DNA from: Thermoplasmata archaeon | GTDB lineage: Archaea; Thermoplasmatota; Thermoplasmata; Thermoplasmatales; Thermoplasmataceae | NCBI GenBank assembly: GCA_021797355.1 | Contig: JAJZZX010000001.1 | Coordinates: 124,001 to 188,000, forward strand | Length of the DNA: 64,000 nt | Direction of reading: 5' to 3' | In this document: piece by piece, positions 30,429-39,768 of the stretch | Layout: each line of letters begins with the position of its first letter | Position numbering within the stretch: the stretch's first letter is position 1 | Position numbers and translations under genes: made by a program | The notes under the pieces: model-generated | Seen by the model: only the letters and a program-made list of their open reading frames with translations | The model's database searches: none | What the model was told of the DNA's origin: nothing

Positions 30429-31815
30429 ACAGAATTTTAGGGTATAACTTTAACCCAAATAAGTCAGAAACCTTCTTTAATCTCTCAGGTATCTCGGCGA
30501 GTGCTCTTCTTGCCCCCTCCGCTATGACATATATCTTTGACAGTTCGAAGAGAGCGTCCTTCACAGACATCTTCTATGAAAGACCCTTATCTTTCAGCAC
30601 ATTTAGGATGCTGAAGTACACGTACAGGGATATGAAGGATATGAAGAAATATCCCCTGATACCGTCGGTTGTGTGCAAATACGATTTGTCGTTCTCCAGC
30701 TCGTTCTTCATGGCATCAAATGCAACCTCCACTTCTTCCCGTGACTTGTAGAGTTCGTATATCTCCTTGGGATCGGACCGCATGTTGCTGAGGATTGCAA
30801 ATTTTCCAAGCTTGTTTCTCTCCTCCTTGAGATATTTCTGTGACATCTCGCCGGATTCAATCTTCCTGATGAGGTTTGTCTCCTCCTCCGCTCTGAGCAA
30901 TGTGTCCTCATACATGTACAGGATCTTATCGCCAAGATCCTTCATTCCTGCATTTATTCCTCTGTTGCGGAAGATGAAGCTTCTGTCCAGATCCATATTG
31001 AAATCAACAATGCTGAAATTCCTCCTTATTGCCACTATGAGATATACCCCATTCTTCCGTGGCATGTCATACGATGCAAGACCCCTGTCTGCAATGATGA
31101 CGCATTCCCTGATGTCGTATCTCTTCATTATGGAATCAAAGGCCTTGTAATCCCTCACGGATCCTGTAACTATTTCCATGATGACAGGCCTATGCCTCTT
31201 CCCTGAGAATACAAGGGCGAAGTTGATCTGATCCAGGTGCAGATGCTTGGGATTATGGCCCTTCTCTGCAAGGTTGATATTCTCGGATCGGGAGAATATT
31301 GATGACAGATCAAAGAGTATCTGATCTCGATTCGTTGTCAGTGACTGAAAGAACCCTGTCTGTGCTACGGTGTCGGACCCTATTATCCTGAGCTTCTCTG
31401 ATATGGTGTTCTCTGAAAGCGAGGCATCGATCTGTGTGGATGCGTATAATTTCTCCCATGCACTCCTCATGTATCTTATGGGTCTTGGGTCCTGGCACCT
31501 TATCATGGACATTGCAACGATCTCTTTCCAGTGATCCGGAAAGTGATGCCTGAGTTCAGGCATTATTTCCTTCACTACAGAAAGAAGGAGTTCAGAATTC
31601 CCGAATTCATATATGGATCGTCGGTTCTTTTTAACAAGACCATTCTCATTGATCCTCCCTATGTATTCGGATACACGGACACGCTTCTTCCTCTCCTTAT
31701 CCCATCTTGTTGTATCCTTGTATAGATAGTGGGAATTTCCTATCTTCTTGACCTCAATCGGAATACCGCGTTCTTCGCCTATTCTCTTCGCTATCTCCCT
31801 GATCTTGGGATCCAT
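30421..31815 (-). pseudogene. IS4/IS1634-like transposase interrupted by one in-frame TAG
   Basis: From ATG 31815, 413 codons run to TAG at 30574-30576; the same frame then continues for 50 codons (MSVKDALFELSKIYVIAEG ...) to a TAA at 30421-30423. The extension looks like the normal C-terminal tail of this transposase class, so the full product would be about 464 residues. DDE residues: Asp in HLHLDQINFALVFSG or the preceding segment, Asp in VIIADRGLAS, and the Y-x2-R-x3-E-x6-K type motif YKSREEVEVAFDAMKNELE. The stop removes only the tail; the 413-residue product may or may not be active. A single-base nonsense mutation is the simplest explanation. Confidence 0.8.
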
Positions 31816-33256: not shown

Positions 33257-34500
33257 GAAAACAAGACAGAATAGAATAGCGAACGATCTAAGAAAGGGCA
33301 ATGGAATAGCGCACCGGCAGCACCGGTGGGAATGCACGGCTCATCTGCTGTTACCATGTAAATGAGAATGCAAAGGCCTTCTTCATTCGAAACTGGCTGG
33401 CATCGTGGCGGGTCCGCCTTGGGATACAGGACCAATCATTCATACCCTGAAGTCATGGAATCAGGTAGAGTAGGCACGGAAACCACTGGATACACTTTCG
33501 TAAATATTTGGGCCGTTTTCTGGTGTTTCACTGATGCTGGCGGCATCATTTACTGAGGGTACGGACCATTTTCAATTTTCCTCTTCAGTTAGTGTTTTGC
33601 GGAGATCTTTCCTCACCAATACCCCCAATCAGGGCCACTTCCAGGAACATGGAATATGAGAAGTGAATCATCATCTCCCAGCCATGAATGCTGTTCTCAA
33701 ATATTTCATGTACGCTGTTCAGGAGTTGATTCTTATGGCAGCAGAACTTTGCAGACCTGAGGTCATATTTCCGGCAGCTATCTGGGACGGATATGGTACC
33801 GCTCATGCCATCTGGGGCGATCTTCAGTTTCTCTTCAGGCGTTTAAACCCTCCTTGCTCACATTTATAAGGCAAAAGAACAACATGGATCATAATTAATT
33901 CGTATTTTGTCCAAAGATGCGACAATCTTTTCATTTATTTCCATTGTGTTATTATGCTGGACAGGGGTTTTGTCCCATACGATCTTGTTGAAATAATGGA
34001 TTCCGGCATGGATTTAGAGCCCATAGATTACGGAATGAATCTTACATCCATATTCATCTGCCTTGGCTGTGAAATGCTGTGCTGTTTCAAGAAGCATGGA
34101 AATTACCTCATATACGTGTTCCAGGGTCAGTCTCTCATGGCGGAAAAAGCCAGCACATAAATAAAACTCATTTCAGAGGGGAGAGGGGTTTGACGCCACG
34201 ATGAACTGGATGGAAACGACAAAACTTACCTGAGAAGTGATAAATCTGTCAGGGCATATTTAGTCATATGGTTTTTATCTCTTTAATTGTATTACAGTAT
34301 CTTCGTCCTCATAAGGGCTGACGATCTCGCAGGAAAATTTTCTGTGAGGGATGTGCTTCTCAGATCCTCAAGTATAATACATGCTAGATGACGGCAGGAG
34401 GGAGATAATGAGCGATGTGCCAGGGTCGGTGGAGAAACTTGATAAAATGCTTGGTACCAATCTAATCACTAAATAATTGTGATGTTAGGGTTCAAAAATT
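33257..34500 (+). pseudogene. Degraded transposase copy and unassigned DNA
   Basis: No intact gene in about 1.2 kb. On the plus strand, VIMLDRGFVPYDLVEIMDSG (about 33948-34007) matches the second-Asp motif of IS4-type transposases (DRGF). At 34318-34476, in two frames, GKFSVRDVLLRSSSIIHAR and EIMSDVPGSVEKLDKMLG resemble the transposase C-terminal tail (compare the tail after the TAG in the IS at 30421-31815). This indicates an old, frame-broken relative in opposite orientation. The part 33257-33940 shows nothing identifiable. Confidence 0.5.
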
Positions 34501-34526
34501 AAAAATGAAAAAATAGAAATGACTGT

Positions 34527-35288
34527 TTATGGGTCTGATGTGACACTAACAAAGATCGGTATTGAAATGCTGCTCTCCTGATATCCGTTACCTGCTCCTG
34601 CTGAAAGTCCCACGTAGAATGAATAATCAGCTACTCCTCCATTAGTAAGTGAAATTCCAAAGTCAGAAACTGTGGGCCCAAAAGCAAAGGCATATCCTGA
34701 ACTAGCCGGTCCCCCAACTGTTACTGATGAATCACTTGTGGCGAATGTATAACCAGAAGAACCAGACAAACCTGCCACTCCACTCAAAGGATTACCTGTT
34801 GTGAATATGTCACTATGGCCAAGTGAACCAGTCACGTTGCTTAGATTCAATCCTTTTCCGCTGAAAGTAACCTTATCAATTACAGGTGTGCCAAAAATCA
34901 ATCCAACGCTCCCTTTATTAGTAAGTGTCATATGTACCTTAACCCAGTTTCCCGGAGCCAGATTTGAAACGTTTATGTAATAAACTATAACCTGCGCCCC
35001 ACTCGAAGTAGATGGCACGGTCGCCAGATTAGGCTCATCATTAAAAGGTATAACCTTACTGTCATTCAGGAAAGCCGTGTTTGTATTCTGACCAAATCCG
35101 CCTGTAACGGTTATGTTAGTATTTTGGGAATATCCAGTTACAAGTTCTGCGTATTCATTTGCTGTAATATCTCCAGCAGATGCCACTACTTTCGTAGTAA
35201 CTGTTCCACTAAATGCAGAATACGCCATTGCACCGCTTAAAGTAAGCATAATCGGTACAATCATAAGAGCTATCAATTTTTTATTCAT
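34527..35288 (-). CDS. TasA/camelysin-like secreted fibre subunit, paralogue A
   Basis: 253 residues. The N-terminus MNKKLIALMIVPIMLTLSGA is a hydrophobic signal followed by AYSAFSGTVTTKVVASAGDI, the pattern after SipW-type signal peptides of the TasA/camelysin family. The rest is beta-rich, Gly/Ser/Thr-rich, Cys-free, with NLAPGNWVKV near the middle and a C-terminal GNGYQESSISIPIFVSVT. Both motifs recur in the paralogues at 35315 and 39112. Likely exported and processed by the signal peptidase at 36047-37228, then polymerised outside (inference). Second gene of a two-gene unit, 26 bases behind paralogue B; its GGTGG ribosome-binding site lies in a hairpin. Confidence 0.75.
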   Translation of the reverse strand: MNKKLIALMIVPIMLTLSGAMAYSAFSGTVTTKVVASAGDITANEYAELVTGYSQNTNITVTGGFGQNTNTAFLNDSKVIPFNDEPNLATVPSTSSGAQVIVYYINVSNLAPGNWVKVHMTLTNKGSVGLIFGTPVIDKVTFSGKGLNLSNVTGSLGHSDIFTTGNPLSGVAGLSGSSGYTFATSDSSVTVGGPASSGYAFAFGPTVSDFGISLTNGGVADYSFYVGLSAGAGNGYQESSISIPIFVSVTSDP

Positions 35289-35293
35289 TTATC

Positions 35294-35324
35294 CCACCAA
35301 AAAATGGTGGACGCTCATGCGTCC
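35294..35324 (-). promoter_or_regulatory. Two abutting hairpins between subunit genes B and A
   Basis: CCACCA-AAAAA-TGGTGG (35294-35310) and GGACGC-TCAT-GCGTCC (35309-35324) are perfect stems sharing two bases. In the minus-strand mRNA the first met covers the stop codon of gene B, the second contains the GGUGG ribosome-binding site of gene A, five bases before its AUG. Both could not be fully paired at once. They could attenuate or hold back translation of A relative to B. Confidence 0.5.
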
Positions 35325-35941
35325 GAGGTCACCGTTATCACTACGCTCAGACTGAATGAGCTTTCCTGATAGCTGTTTCCACTGCCTGATGCAAGTCCCA
35401 CAACTACAAAGTATGATGCGGTTCCGCCGTTATCTATGGATCCGGACGGGATTGAGGATACCATGTAAACGTAACCTGTTCCAGTCATGTCAGAGGTAAA
35501 CGAACTCCACGAGGATGCTGAAGTGTCAGATAGACCAGACGTTATCGTTCCAGTTGCTGTTGCAGATGATAGCATAAACCCAACAGATCCGTTGTTTGTA
35601 ACAGTGAACTCGAAGGTTGCCCAGTTACCAGGTGCCATATTGCCAAGGGTTACTGTCTGAGTTGTTGTATTACCACTCTGAGAGTCAAGTCCTGCCCATC
35701 CAAGGCTCATTGGGCTAAAGTCAGAAGACATAGGGCCTGCTGTTAATTGAACACCATTCACTGTCATTTGGGTGTTATCCTGTGTATAATTATACAGGTA
35801 TGCATGCTGGTTAAAGCTTATGTAGCCCGCACTCGCATTTACGTCTGTTGTGATTGACCCAGAAAAAGCGGAAAATGCCAGTGCTCCTGACATTACCACC
35901 AATACTGGAACAATTGCCAACACTAACAATTTCTTGTTCAT
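35315..35941 (-). CDS. TasA/camelysin-like secreted fibre subunit, paralogue B
   Basis: 208 residues. Signal MNKKLLVLAIVPVLVVMSGA, then LAFSAFSGSITTDVNASAGYI. Shares NMAPGNWATF and a C-terminal GNSYQESSFSLSVVITVT with paralogues A and C. Cys-free, rich in Ser, Thr, Gly and aromatic residues as in secreted beta proteins of acidophiles. First gene of the B-A unit, with TATA at 35991-35999 and a GGTGA ribosome-binding site. Probably the most strongly expressed subunit because it is promoter-proximal (inference). Confidence 0.75.
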   Translation of the reverse strand: MNKKLLVLAIVPVLVVMSGALAFSAFSGSITTDVNASAGYISFNQHAYLYNYTQDNTQMTVNGVQLTAGPMSSDFSPMSLGWAGLDSQSGNTTTQTVTLGNMAPGNWATFEFTVTNNGSVGFMLSSATATGTITSGLSDTSASSWSSFTSDMTGTGYVYMVSSIPSGSIDNGGTASYFVVVGLASGSGNSYQESSFSLSVVITVTSDA

Positions 35942-35990
35942 GTGGTTTTCACCAGAGGATGATTATCATGAAAATACTTAAGGTGCCAGA

Positions 35991-35999
35991 ATTATAAAT
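35991..35999 (-). promoter_or_regulatory. TATA box of the fibre-subunit B-A unit
   Basis: ATTATAAAT (plus strand) lies about 55 bases before ATG 35941, leaving a leader of about 25 bases with GGTGA, unlike the leaderless pattern of most genes here. An almost identical element, GAATTATAAAT, precedes paralogue C. Confidence 0.5.
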
Positions 36000-36046
36000 C
36001 AGTAGCACAAATATGGACATTCAATATGTAGCAGAGATACATATAG

Positions 36047-37228
36047 TCATACGTGGGATTTTCTTACTTTATGTCCAGATGTACCCTCCTTGACTATTGA
36101 GGCCACAATGATTATCATTACGGCAGCAGCTGTTACCCTGCCATAAATTAAGGGATAACCAAGGTAAGGAACATGATAGATCACGATACCCACAAGATCT
36201 GATGATGGAACAAGCCCTGGATCATCCACAGGATTATTGATTCCACGGGTTCTGAAATATATTTTTCCATCTACATTTTTTATCTGGACCACCTCGTGTG
36301 CATAAAGAGTACCGTTGTCCCATGGAGCATGAAATTCGATTATTTCGCCTGTTGTGATCGACTGTGCAGATGCTGGCTTTATGATTAGGAGCGATCCAGG
36401 AACAATGACAGGATACATGCTTGGCGTAGGGTCAGCCGCCACTGTGTGGGTTACATAGCCACCAATTGCACCAGTTGCAATAATCAAGATGAACACTACA
36501 AAGGCAACGTCTGATAACTTTGTTTTTTTTCTTACATGTATCCTCCTTTTTGATTTAAGAAGCTTCCTGACCCAGATATTCTCTCCCAGCGCAAAGTAAG
36601 TCATCCAGAAGAGTATTGATACTGCTATGATTTCCCATACAATATTAAAAAGTGGTGAAACCTTCTCCGTAATGCCAAGAAATGAAAACGTTGAATAAAG
36701 AAAGAAGAATAGGACAGGAGTAACCAGTTTTTTATTCGCTGAAATGTAAAGATACGAAACATATATGGAAAATGCAAGGTCAAAACTCAGCTGATACAGA
36801 AGAATTTTAACTATCTGAATCAGAGCGTATGGGACAACTACGGGCGTAAGCACAAGAAAATATGCAACCCCTGAGGCTATCATTCCGTAGAATATTTTCT
36901 TGCTGCTCATATCCACAAATGTTGAGAAGATAACAGGAACAAGTACAATGGAAAGTGCGAGGGAATACTCCATTGAGTTTATGAAAGCGGAACTATAGAA
37001 AACAACATTCAGGGTCTGTGTAAGAAATGCAGGCATTATGAGAAGAAATGCCAGAACGGAAAAGAGAACTGGCGCGTACGGCCATTTTTTGTCCCCAAGG
37101 AATTTTCTGTAATAGAGGAACAGAACCGGTACTGTTGAAAGCATCACTATCCACGGGCTGAATTTGAAAAAGTAGCTGGACTGCCAAAAGGCGATGTACA
37201 AAACAGGTATGTACCATCTCTGCCTCAT
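36047..37228 (-). CDS. Signal peptidase I (S26B) with large polytopic N-terminal domain
   Basis: 393 residues. Residues about 8-215 hold six or seven hydrophobic helices; a further helix at about 241-260 precedes the catalytic domain. Catalytic Ser is S270 (PTPSMYP), the general base is H311 (TLYAHEVVQI) as in archaeal/ER and SipW-type enzymes rather than the bacterial Lys, and D335/D336 lie in TRGINNPVDDPG. Ordinary archaeal enzymes are under 220 residues, so the N-terminal half is an addition, perhaps for subunit docking. Its start overlaps the DUF5305-like gene by four bases. Lies between the fibre-subunit genes, suggesting a dedicated processing enzyme. Confidence 0.85.
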   Translation of the reverse strand: MRQRWYIPVLYIAFWQSSYFFKFSPWIVMLSTVPVLFLYYRKFLGDKKWPYAPVLFSVLAFLLIMPAFLTQTLNVVFYSSAFINSMEYSLALSIVLVPVIFSTFVDMSSKKIFYGMIASGVAYFLVLTPVVVPYALIQIVKILLYQLSFDLAFSIYVSYLYISANKKLVTPVLFFFLYSTFSFLGITEKVSPLFNIVWEIIAVSILFWMTYFALGENIWVRKLLKSKRRIHVRKKTKLSDVAFVVFILIIATGAIGGYVTHTVAADPTPSMYPVIVPGSLLIIKPASAQSITTGEIIEFHAPWDNGTLYAHEVVQIKNVDGKIYFRTRGINNPVDDPGLVPSSDLVGIVIYHVPYLGYPLIYGRVTAAAVMIIIVASIVKEGTSGHKVRKSHV

Positions 37229-38172
37229 TTTTTAATCTCCGCATAATACGTTTTTCCGTCAATCTCAATAAATACTATATCTTTGAATATAAACACAGGC
37301 CTTTCCACAAAAGTTGCCATTCTGAAAAGGTCATCTGTACTTTTTACAGGAATGGATCCTTCTGGTGGACCAATACCTAGTTCTATTAGATTCTCACGAT
37401 TATCATTTTTGAATTTCTGAACAGGGTCAGGTCGTGAAGGCATAACCAAATAGGCGATAGAGCCAAGAAGTATTGCACCCACAAAAATCAGTGGGTAAGA
37501 AATATCGCGGCTCAGTGGAATAATTATCTTTCCGGGAATCACAGCGTTCCTGAAATATGAACCTGTCAATGGAGCATCTCCCGGTCCAGTTACCGAATCG
37601 GTTGTCCCGCCTACGGCAATAGTAAGGTTGGAATCTGCCAGCCCAAGATTGCTTTTTGCCTGTGAAACTATGTTTATTGAATATGACGAACCTGAGGTAA
37701 AACCAAGCTGATCATTGATCTCAGATCCTAGGGAAACATTGGATGTCAGATTTATTCTCATCACAAAAGAATCCGAAAAGCCAGATGTTGCGTTAAAAAC
37801 TTTATCTGTGCTGTAAGAAAGTTTTTCCCATGAGGGATTTGAAGATATGACGTACACACTGTAACTGTAATAAAGTCTCTCACTTAATCCCTGAGAATTG
37901 AAATAATTTACGTTCACATCAATAAATATATTCTTGCTGATGCTTTTGTATATTACTGATGGATTTGTAAGGTTAGTATTGTTGCCGTAAAGGGTGTTGT
38001 TACGTAACTGATCAACAAGAGTCATACGTGTATCTAGCGAATAAGAACCATATGCTTCGCGAACATCCCTAGGACGAGGCTGAACAAGAACAATGAGAGC
38101 TACGGCAAGAATAATGATGCCCACTACTGCTAAAACCGTAGATTTACTTTTCTTACTAATTATAGACTTCAT
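37225..38172 (-). CDS. DUF5305-like membrane protein of the fibre locus
   Basis: 315 residues from ATG 38172 (a TTG at 38187 is possible). One N-terminal helix (about 14-33), an extracellular beta-rich region of some 190 residues with several N-x-S/T sites, a second helix at about 225-250, and a cytoplasmic tail ending in a beta-hairpin-like segment (FIEIDGKTYYAEIKK). This topology and sequence resemble DUF5305 proteins, commonly next to archaeal signal peptidases. A TATA-like AAAATATTTT lies about 30 bases upstream. The coupled overlap with the signal peptidase implies a joint complex; an anchor or assembly platform is plausible. Confidence 0.65.
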   Translation of the reverse strand: MKSIISKKSKSTVLAVVGIIILAVALIVLVQPRPRDVREAYGSYSLDTRMTLVDQLRNNTLYGNNTNLTNPSVIYKSISKNIFIDVNVNYFNSQGLSERLYYSYSVYVISSNPSWEKLSYSTDKVFNATSGFSDSFVMRINLTSNVSLGSEINDQLGFTSGSSYSINIVSQAKSNLGLADSNLTIAVGGTTDSVTGPGDAPLTGSYFRNAVIPGKIIIPLSRDISYPLIFVGAILLGSIAYLVMPSRPDPVQKFKNDNRENLIELGIGPPEGSIPVKSTDDLFRMATFVERPVFIFKDIVFIEIDGKTYYAEIKK

Positions 38173-38253
38173 GAAGATATGAAACAAGTGAATATCCCTT
38201 AAAATATTTTGCAGTACAGAATATATATCACAAAATGTTGAAAGAATGAGAGT

Positions 38254-39111: not shown

Positions 39112-39768
39112 TCACTGCTCAGTCAGCGTAATGATTAGGGGAAGGTTAAACGAGGATTCCTGATAGACATTGCCTGAAGCTTGCGATAGAAAAATGAAGA
39201 AGCCTAATGTCAGAGTGCAGCCAGGTGATACCTGATTTCCATTTTCCCATATGATCCCATAATACCCCCCAGGATTCTGGCATTGATTTACAGTGTTGTT
39301 TACCACAGCAAACCAGGCTTCCTGGTCGTTGCAGGTGGTCGAATTGTAGAAACTCAAGCCATTGCCAGAAAACTGCCCAAAGGAAATATTTGTCACAATC
39401 TGTGTCTGGCTGTTCGGATTATAAATTTGAATACAGAACAATAGTGCATTTCCAGGTGAAAGGTTAGATATGTTAAGGTAGTCATAGATTGAACCATCAT
39501 AAGAAGTATGGTTAGGAATAACTTGGACCGGTGGATAGAGTTCATTGAACAGACAATTTGAATTTCCGCTGAAAATATGGTTGTTTACATATAGTTCAGT
39601 ATTGTCAGCCCAAAAGGCACAGACAGAAACACCATCATTTATTCCAACGAAATTTGCAGTTGCTGATACATTTGTTGTTGAAGTTCCTGAAAATGCGGAA
39701 AATGCCATGGATCCGGACATAACAGAAAGTATCATAACCGAACATATCACAATGATCCGGATCCTCAC
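39112..39768 (-). CDS. TasA/camelysin-like secreted subunit, Cys-rich paralogue C
   Basis: 218 residues. Signal MRIRIIVICSVMILSVMSGS, then MAFSAFSGTSTTNVSATANF, matching A and B. Shares NLSPGNALLF and C-terminal GNVYQESSFNLPLIITLT. Unlike A and B it has six Cys in the mature part (in VCAFW, NCLFN, FCIQI, TCNDQ, QCQNP, GCTL), an even number suited to disulfides. It has its own promoter (39805-39814). A tip, base or adaptor subunit is possible (inference). Confidence 0.75.
   Translation of the reverse strand: MRIRIIVICSVMILSVMSGSMAFSAFSGTSTTNVSATANFVGINDGVSVCAFWADNTELYVNNHIFSGNSNCLFNELYPPVQVIPNHTSYDGSIYDYLNISNLSPGNALLFCIQIYNPNSQTQIVTNISFGQFSGNGLSFYNSTTCNDQEAWFAVVNNTVNQCQNPGGYYGIIWENGNQVSPGCTLTLGFFIFLSQASGNVYQESSFNLPLIITLTEQ

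Follow-up and report, generated by a model that had tools for sequence, protein, structure and literature searches.

The window, i.e. the whole stretch of 64,000 nucleotides of DNA that was analysed from a Thermoplasmata archaeon, an acidophile of Thermoplasmatales type, carries a small cluster of genes on its minus strand, in which two adjacent genes for secreted proteins, here called B and A, follow a signal peptidase gene:

36047..37228, minus strand: signal peptidase I gene, upstream of B, in a SipW-like context (TIGR02228, E 3e-21)
35315..35941, minus strand: gene B, open reading frame for a putative camelysin/TasA-like secreted subunit of 208 aa, stop codon TGA at 35315-35317
34527..35288, minus strand: gene A, open reading frame for a paralogue of B of 253 aa (41% identical in the alignment)

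The TIGR02228 score of the signal peptidase gene lies above the cut-off of that model, and the stricter SipW equivalog model gives an E value of 1.2e-11, below its cut-off. This SipW-like gene adjoins the subunit genes, adjacency being the criterion applied to the TasA/camelysin superfamily. A third B/A paralogue is found in the same cluster at 39112-39768, and B and A each start with a segment that resembles a signal peptide and closes with a SAFSG-type motif. The signal peptidase gene in turn overlaps the gene at 37225-38187 by 4 nt (ATGA, 37225-37228), which is the classic coupled arrangement and unlike the B-A junction. Further away, at 30574-31815, there is a 413-aa ORF that resembles a DDE transposase, as judged by eye.

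The assignment of B and A was approached in several ways. Pfam searches with the single sequences returned no family at E 0.001, but when 9 members of the family were aligned, 7 of them matched Camelysin PF12389, at best with E 3.8e-4. The profile search against PDB was headed by spore coat-associated protein N and TasA (E 0.032-0.039). The predicted fold is a beta-sandwich without a clear match (best Foldseek E 6.2e-3; best Z 6.5); the TasA fibre appeared in the fold search at rank 44 with E 0.25, and TasA is absent among the best 50 VIA-align matches listed. We regard B and A as likely, rather than proven, camelysin/TasA-like proteins. Their named relatives come from Thermoplasmata MAGs and from Acidiplasma aeolicum, and none of the 20 candidate viral stretches encodes a relative. 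Codon bias was also considered as a proxy for a high B:A ratio. The codon adaptation of the two genes is low and alike (0.718 for B and 0.729 for A against a background mean of 0.746, i.e. percentiles 14.9 and 22.3 among 350 ORFs) and lends no support to such a ratio.

B and A are separated by a gap of 26 nt, and the following elements are found at the junction:

35309..35324, minus strand: hairpin 1 (hp1), GGACGC-ATGA-GCGTCC, 6 bp with a loop of 4, isolated dG -9.6 kcal/mol at 37 °C
35294..35310, minus strand: hairpin 2 (hp2), CCACCA-TTTTT-TGGTGG, 6 bp with a loop of 5, isolated dG -10.0 kcal/mol at 37 °C
35299..35304, minus strand: T6 tract inside hp2, a possible weak archaeal terminator (T6 follows B in 1 of 7 loci)
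35295..35298, minus strand: GGTG, Shine-Dalgarno (SD)-like site of A, 6 nt before the ATG, complementary to the 16S 3' end GGATCACCTCCT

The two abutting perfect stems reported in the initial annotation are thus exact to the base on the minus strand. The loop of hp1 holds the TGA stop of B (35317-35315), and the SD-like GGTG lies within the 3' arm of hp2, followed by the ATG of A at 35288. The hairpins have bases 35309-35310 in common, so that the full 6-bp forms of hp1 and hp2 are mutually exclusive. The anti-SD sequence GGATCACCTCCT was read in the 16S gene of G003, a genome of the same genus, since the window's own assembly gave no match for 16S rRNA; ribosomal L2 likewise had no match there, and L14 was found. 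A known RNA family was ruled out, as Rfam gave no match at the junction and a single chance-level match (E 0.88) elsewhere in 34300-36300. A repeated element was ruled out as well, the 39-nt stretch having no second copy in its own genome at up to 3 mismatches.

The predicted fold depends on the sequence context. The pairing probability (P) of hp1 is 0.05-0.32 with flanks of 40 nt and 0.00-0.01 with flanks of 80 or 150 nt (188- and 328-nt contexts), and that of hp2 is 0.84-0.96 with three flank lengths at 37-65 °C. The helices predicted in the longer contexts are formed by the following arms:

35366..35374, minus strand: AGCTATCAG, codons of B, 5' arm of a closing helix of 8 to 9 bp (P 0.83-0.97)
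35356..35361, minus strand: GCTCAT, 5' arm of a competing helix, 43 nt upstream of ATGAGC
35313..35318, minus strand: ATGAGC, 3' arm of the competing helix (P 0.88-0.98 in the 188- and 328-nt contexts, 37-65 °C)
35268..35276, minus strand: TTGATAGCT, codons of A, 3' arm of the closing helix, from folding

In other words, the ATGAGC half of hp1 is predicted to pair with GCTCAT, and the multibranch fold that contains this helix is closed by AGCTATCA in B together with TGATAGCT in A. The models suggest that hp1 is probably not formed in the mRNA and that this longer-range fold replaces it. The closing-helix arm AGCTATCAG is not conserved in the junction sequences of the relatives. Of the hairpin said to cover the stop of B, the exact stem and the TGA in its loop remain; it is predicted not to form in context, and with a P of about 0 hp1 drops out as a working part of the proposed device. 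The part of the proposal that concerns the other hairpin is supported by prediction. The site that hp2 was proposed to trap, the SD of A, has a predicted open probability of about 0.01, i.e. it is about 99% closed, with four flank lengths. Of the 20 junctions whose gaps measure 10-60 nt, this one has the lowest value, and it ranks with the 7 lowest (at most 0.015) when all 101 junctions possessing an SD are compared; those that lack a 4-nt SD were left out. The P of hp2 moves only from 0.96 to 0.94-0.95 between 37 and 65 °C (80- and 150-nt flanks); it stays paired, therefore a heat switch in that range is not predicted and an RNA thermometer was rejected.

The initial annotation also held that ribosomes terminating on B would open the structure. 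Such a ribosome would indeed cover the 5' arm of hp2, but the predicted opening of the SD is partial (0.2-0.7). With a ribosome on the stop of B and its leading edge at +10 to +16, the SD is predicted to be open at 0.38-0.60 at 37 °C and 0.18-0.71 at 55 °C. With the leading edge at +6 or +8, or with the ribosome 15-45 nt upstream, the value is 0.00-0.22, and when the flanks are 150 nt long, the opening at 55 °C reaches no more than about 0.2-0.3. Coupling by one and the same ribosome appears unlikely by analogy, since the gap of 26 nt is longer than the distance that abolishes reinitiation in Haloferax volcanii, where gaps of +22/+23 nt cut reinitiation to zero or near zero in 3 of 3 pairs in the passages cited from PMC10666635. 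The gap also lies outside the range used to recognise archaeal termination-reinitiation (an overlap, or a gap below about 20 nt). RNA unfolding works at larger gaps, e.g. at +52 in rpmI-rplT according to the cited part of PMC12548453. From the geometry, a new 30S subunit at A would be expected to clash with the terminating ribosome.

We asked how unusual such hairpins are in this genome. In 464 kb, 780 perfect hairpins of at least 6 bp with loops of 3-8 were counted, versus 669 in a first-order Markov control, and abutting pairs of hairpins (overlap 0-2) were found 10 times, i.e. about once per 46 kb, versus 1.0 in the control; this tenfold excess means that abutting repeats arise often. Among 123 co-directional junctions, crudely called by a simple gene finder (5 of 128 were left out for short flanks), a hairpin lies on the stop in 3, on the SD in 5 and on both in 2, and in the second of the latter, where the genes lie 88 nt apart, the start is probably wrong. 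Compared with shuffled sequences, the junction has z scores of -3.5 (34 nt, 1/200 as good), -1.4 (61 nt), -1.7 (101 nt) and -3.8 (150 nt), the last of which arises from a different fold; the local z is -3.1 (2/300 shuffles). In synonymous-codon shuffles with the gap kept fixed, 25/500 were as stable for the narrow region, 378/500 for the middle region (30 nt of B and 21 nt of A) and 3/500 for the wide region (66 nt of B and 42 nt of A). The structure of the junction is therefore unusual, roughly at the 1% level per junction, yet not overwhelming across many junctions.

Relatives of the B-A pair were searched for in 61 genomes of relatives and then in 77 genomes of the family. The resulting set consists of 7 loci in 6 genomes (G000, G003 twice, G004, G010, G019 and G087) with 6 distinct junctions, as the junctions of G003 locus 1 and G004 are identical and were counted as one. 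A pair in G082 spaced by 394 nt was excluded, and G010 was added by hand, its B being without an ATG/GTG/CTG/TTG start. Some subunit homologues apparently start with ACG (L004, G010) or CTG (the three paralogues L005, L013 and L016 of G022), each after a GGTGA-type site; in G010 and G022 these seem to be either sequencing errors or non-ATG starts.

The junction of the same-genus G003 (locus 1) and G004 reads TAAGGGAGTGGATAGCAATG, that of the next relative, G010, reads TAAGTAAGGTGATGAAAGTG, and the gap is 14 nt in each. Neither hp1 nor hp2 is present in these 14-nt junctions, and a search allowing up to 3 mismatches did not find the 39-nt element in any of the 4 other genomes of the genus; two of these, G001 and G002, have incomplete assemblies in which neither B nor A appears. 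A lack of conserved pairing in relatives had been named in the initial annotation as the outcome that would refute it, and for these stems it is the outcome observed: the stems are missing from the G003/G004 and G010 junctions, and with the stems absent there, compensatory changes in hp1 or hp2 are not seen among these relatives. On grounds of parsimony, the 12 additional nt of the window were probably inserted in its own lineage. G003 and G004 have a weak hairpin of 6 pairs over the stop and the SD (-6.0 kcal/mol, z -1.0), which is no better than chance. The predicted SD open probability at 37 °C is 0.76 in G003 locus 1 and G004, 0.42 in G010, 0.54 in G019, 0.36 in G003 locus 2 and 0.28 in G087, versus 0.01 in the window.

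The junctions of G019, G003 locus 2 and G087 have gaps of 65 nt and share a hairpin of 11 bp that ends just before an AGGAG SD, i.e. a structure other than hp2 that mostly leaves the SD outside the stem. Their local z values are between -2.5 and -4.1. In G087 the hairpin shows one double change (G-C to A-U) and one single-sided change (G-U to A-U), and all 33 of 33 cells are paired, but with only 3 sequences 164/500 shuffles equal the covariation score. The 65-nt gap is slightly more conserved than the genes (identities of 63/65 and 54/65 versus 0.94-0.97 and 0.80-0.82). Two of the 6 distinct junctions (z -1.04 and -0.65) have no clear hairpin. The 11-bp hairpin may hint that the B-A junction often carries RNA structure. 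G087 (L066) combines a B promoter and leader of the window type with a B-A gap and genes of the G019 type (L062), which suggests, from the sequences, that its operon is a mosaic.

The region in front of B, by contrast, is conserved. In the 80 nt before B, 69 bases are identical between the window and G003, compared with about 66% of the aligned positions in B (406/618) and about 65% in A (474/726). This region holds a TATA-like TTTATAAT, and a palindrome, ATGATAATCAT, is found at 35959-35969 and 36108-36118 of the window, i.e. at -28 and -177 of B, the latter falling in the signal peptidase coding sequence. G003 and G087 also carry the palindrome RTGATWATCAY at both of these positions, whereas G019 does not. 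It is rare, with 4 sites in the whole 1.74-Mb genome of the window; G003 has 12, of which 3 lie no more than 550 bp ahead of B. The palindrome is a candidate operator, and the conserved upstream element is a better candidate for regulating these genes than the B-A junction.

Our tentative explanation, which we favour without holding it to be established, is that hp2 alone, as a lineage-specific element, masks the SD of A and lowers its translation. In the bicistronic B-A mRNA hp2 would hide the SD, free ribosomes would start A poorly and A would be made at a lower level; part of this synthesis would take place while a ribosome that has reached the stop of B sits on the 5' arm of hp2 and briefly opens the hairpin. 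Hp1 would have no working part, its bases being predicted to pair elsewhere in the mRNA. A poly-T follows A in 7 of 7 B-A loci, as expected if one transcript carries both genes. We count in favour of masking the high P of hp2, the lowest SD opening among comparable junctions, the partial opening by the ribosome, the local z and the stability of the wide region. We count against it the nonconservation, the ordinary fold at the middle scale, the weak opening at 55 °C, the expected 30S clash and the frequency of such repeats in the genome. The repeats, the SD within the stem, the gap length and the absence in relatives are read from the sequence, the fold and the closed SD are predicted, and a weaker translation of A, like any consequence for the make-up of the fibre, is inferred.

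A close rival, which we regard as quite possible, is that 12 nt were recently inserted in this lineage, are by chance complementary to the neighbouring GGACGC and TGGTGG and have no selected role. The gap lengths (14 nt in G003, G004 and G010 versus 26 nt in the window), the lack of a match in the 4 other genus genomes, the 10 abutting hairpin pairs per 464 kb and the contrast with the 69/80 conserved bases before B all agree with this, whereas the SD masking, the strongest of 20 comparable junctions, and a stability above most shuffles at two of three scales do not. Internal termination, in which a fraction of the transcripts would end behind B at the T6 of hp2 and leave more B than B-A mRNA, is unlikely in our view. 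The T6 lies less than 20 nt from the stop of B, the operon-internal poly(T) after arlB0 of Pyrococcus furiosus is proposed as a terminator in the passages cited from PMC10665913, and internal terminators are given for 38% of Methanococcus maripaludis operons in those of PMC10450193. Nevertheless, single T6 runs are common (322 T6 or A6 runs in 464 kb), T-tracts are more numerous after A, and the remaining 6 of the 7 loci have no T-run of at least 4 behind B.

The full model of the initial annotation, in which two cooperating hairpins and translational coupling set a high B:A ratio, now appears very improbable. Both stems exist and the SD is predicted to open partly with a ribosome on the stop of B, but hp1 is not predicted in context, the gap is +26 nt, the stems lack conservation and the codon bias of the two genes is equal. 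It would be still harder to maintain that the junction hairpin is an mRNA 3'-end or processing element of B whose sequence varies by lineage, which we consider barely credible: the shared 11-bp hairpin with its compensatory and single-sided changes and its low local z values points this way, and against it stand the small number of sequences, the shuffles that match the covariation score, a gap hardly more conserved than the genes and the two distinct junctions without a clear hairpin. A broader idea, which we regard as improbable, is that the B-A junctions of archaeal camelysin operons repeatedly gain unrelated hairpins, an SD-masking one in the window and the 11-bp one with its compensatory change in G019, G003 and G087, and that these hairpins determine in what proportion two fibre subunits are made; if true, the composition of archaeal fibres would be under an RNA control that is convergent and evolves fast.

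The principle itself is not novel, since intergenic hairpins that mask an SD are well established in bacteria. The predicted masking by hp2 resembles RNA-unfolding coupling as described for E. coli rpmI-rplT in the cited part of PMC12548453, in that a hairpin over the downstream RBS could be opened by an upstream ribosome; it differs in that the hairpin of the window is small, local, not conserved, in an archaeal host and known from sequence and prediction. The termination-reinitiation pairs of Haloferax volcanii (PMC10666635, passages cited) are likewise co-directional adjacent genes for related proteins, but the +26 nt gap is beyond the range of reinitiation measured there. The archaellin operon of Pyrococcus furiosus also has a T-tract after the first of its tandem fibre subunit genes in the cited part of PMC10665913, whereas the T6 of the window is single, lies inside a hairpin and is missing in the other 6 B-A loci. 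A signal peptidase gene adjoining camelysin-like paralogues is found in tapA-sipW-tasA and sipW-calY1-bc_1280-calY2 of Bacillus and in archaeal bundling pili, according to the passages cited from PMC10151520 and PMC9674648; the sequence match of the subunits of the window is weak. In the open-access papers searched we found none on TasA in Thermoplasmatales; among the literature matches listed there was nothing useful on Cuniculiplasma and no matching case of SD sequestering in archaea.

Since the close relatives lack it, hp2 looks local and fairly ordinary. The negative results are useful in themselves: conservation in this operon falls on the cis-element ahead of B and does not extend to the hairpins. 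If the masking by hp2 is real, an archaeon would tune two TasA-like subunits by simple RNA means, and this in a group in which the control of such fibres has been little studied.
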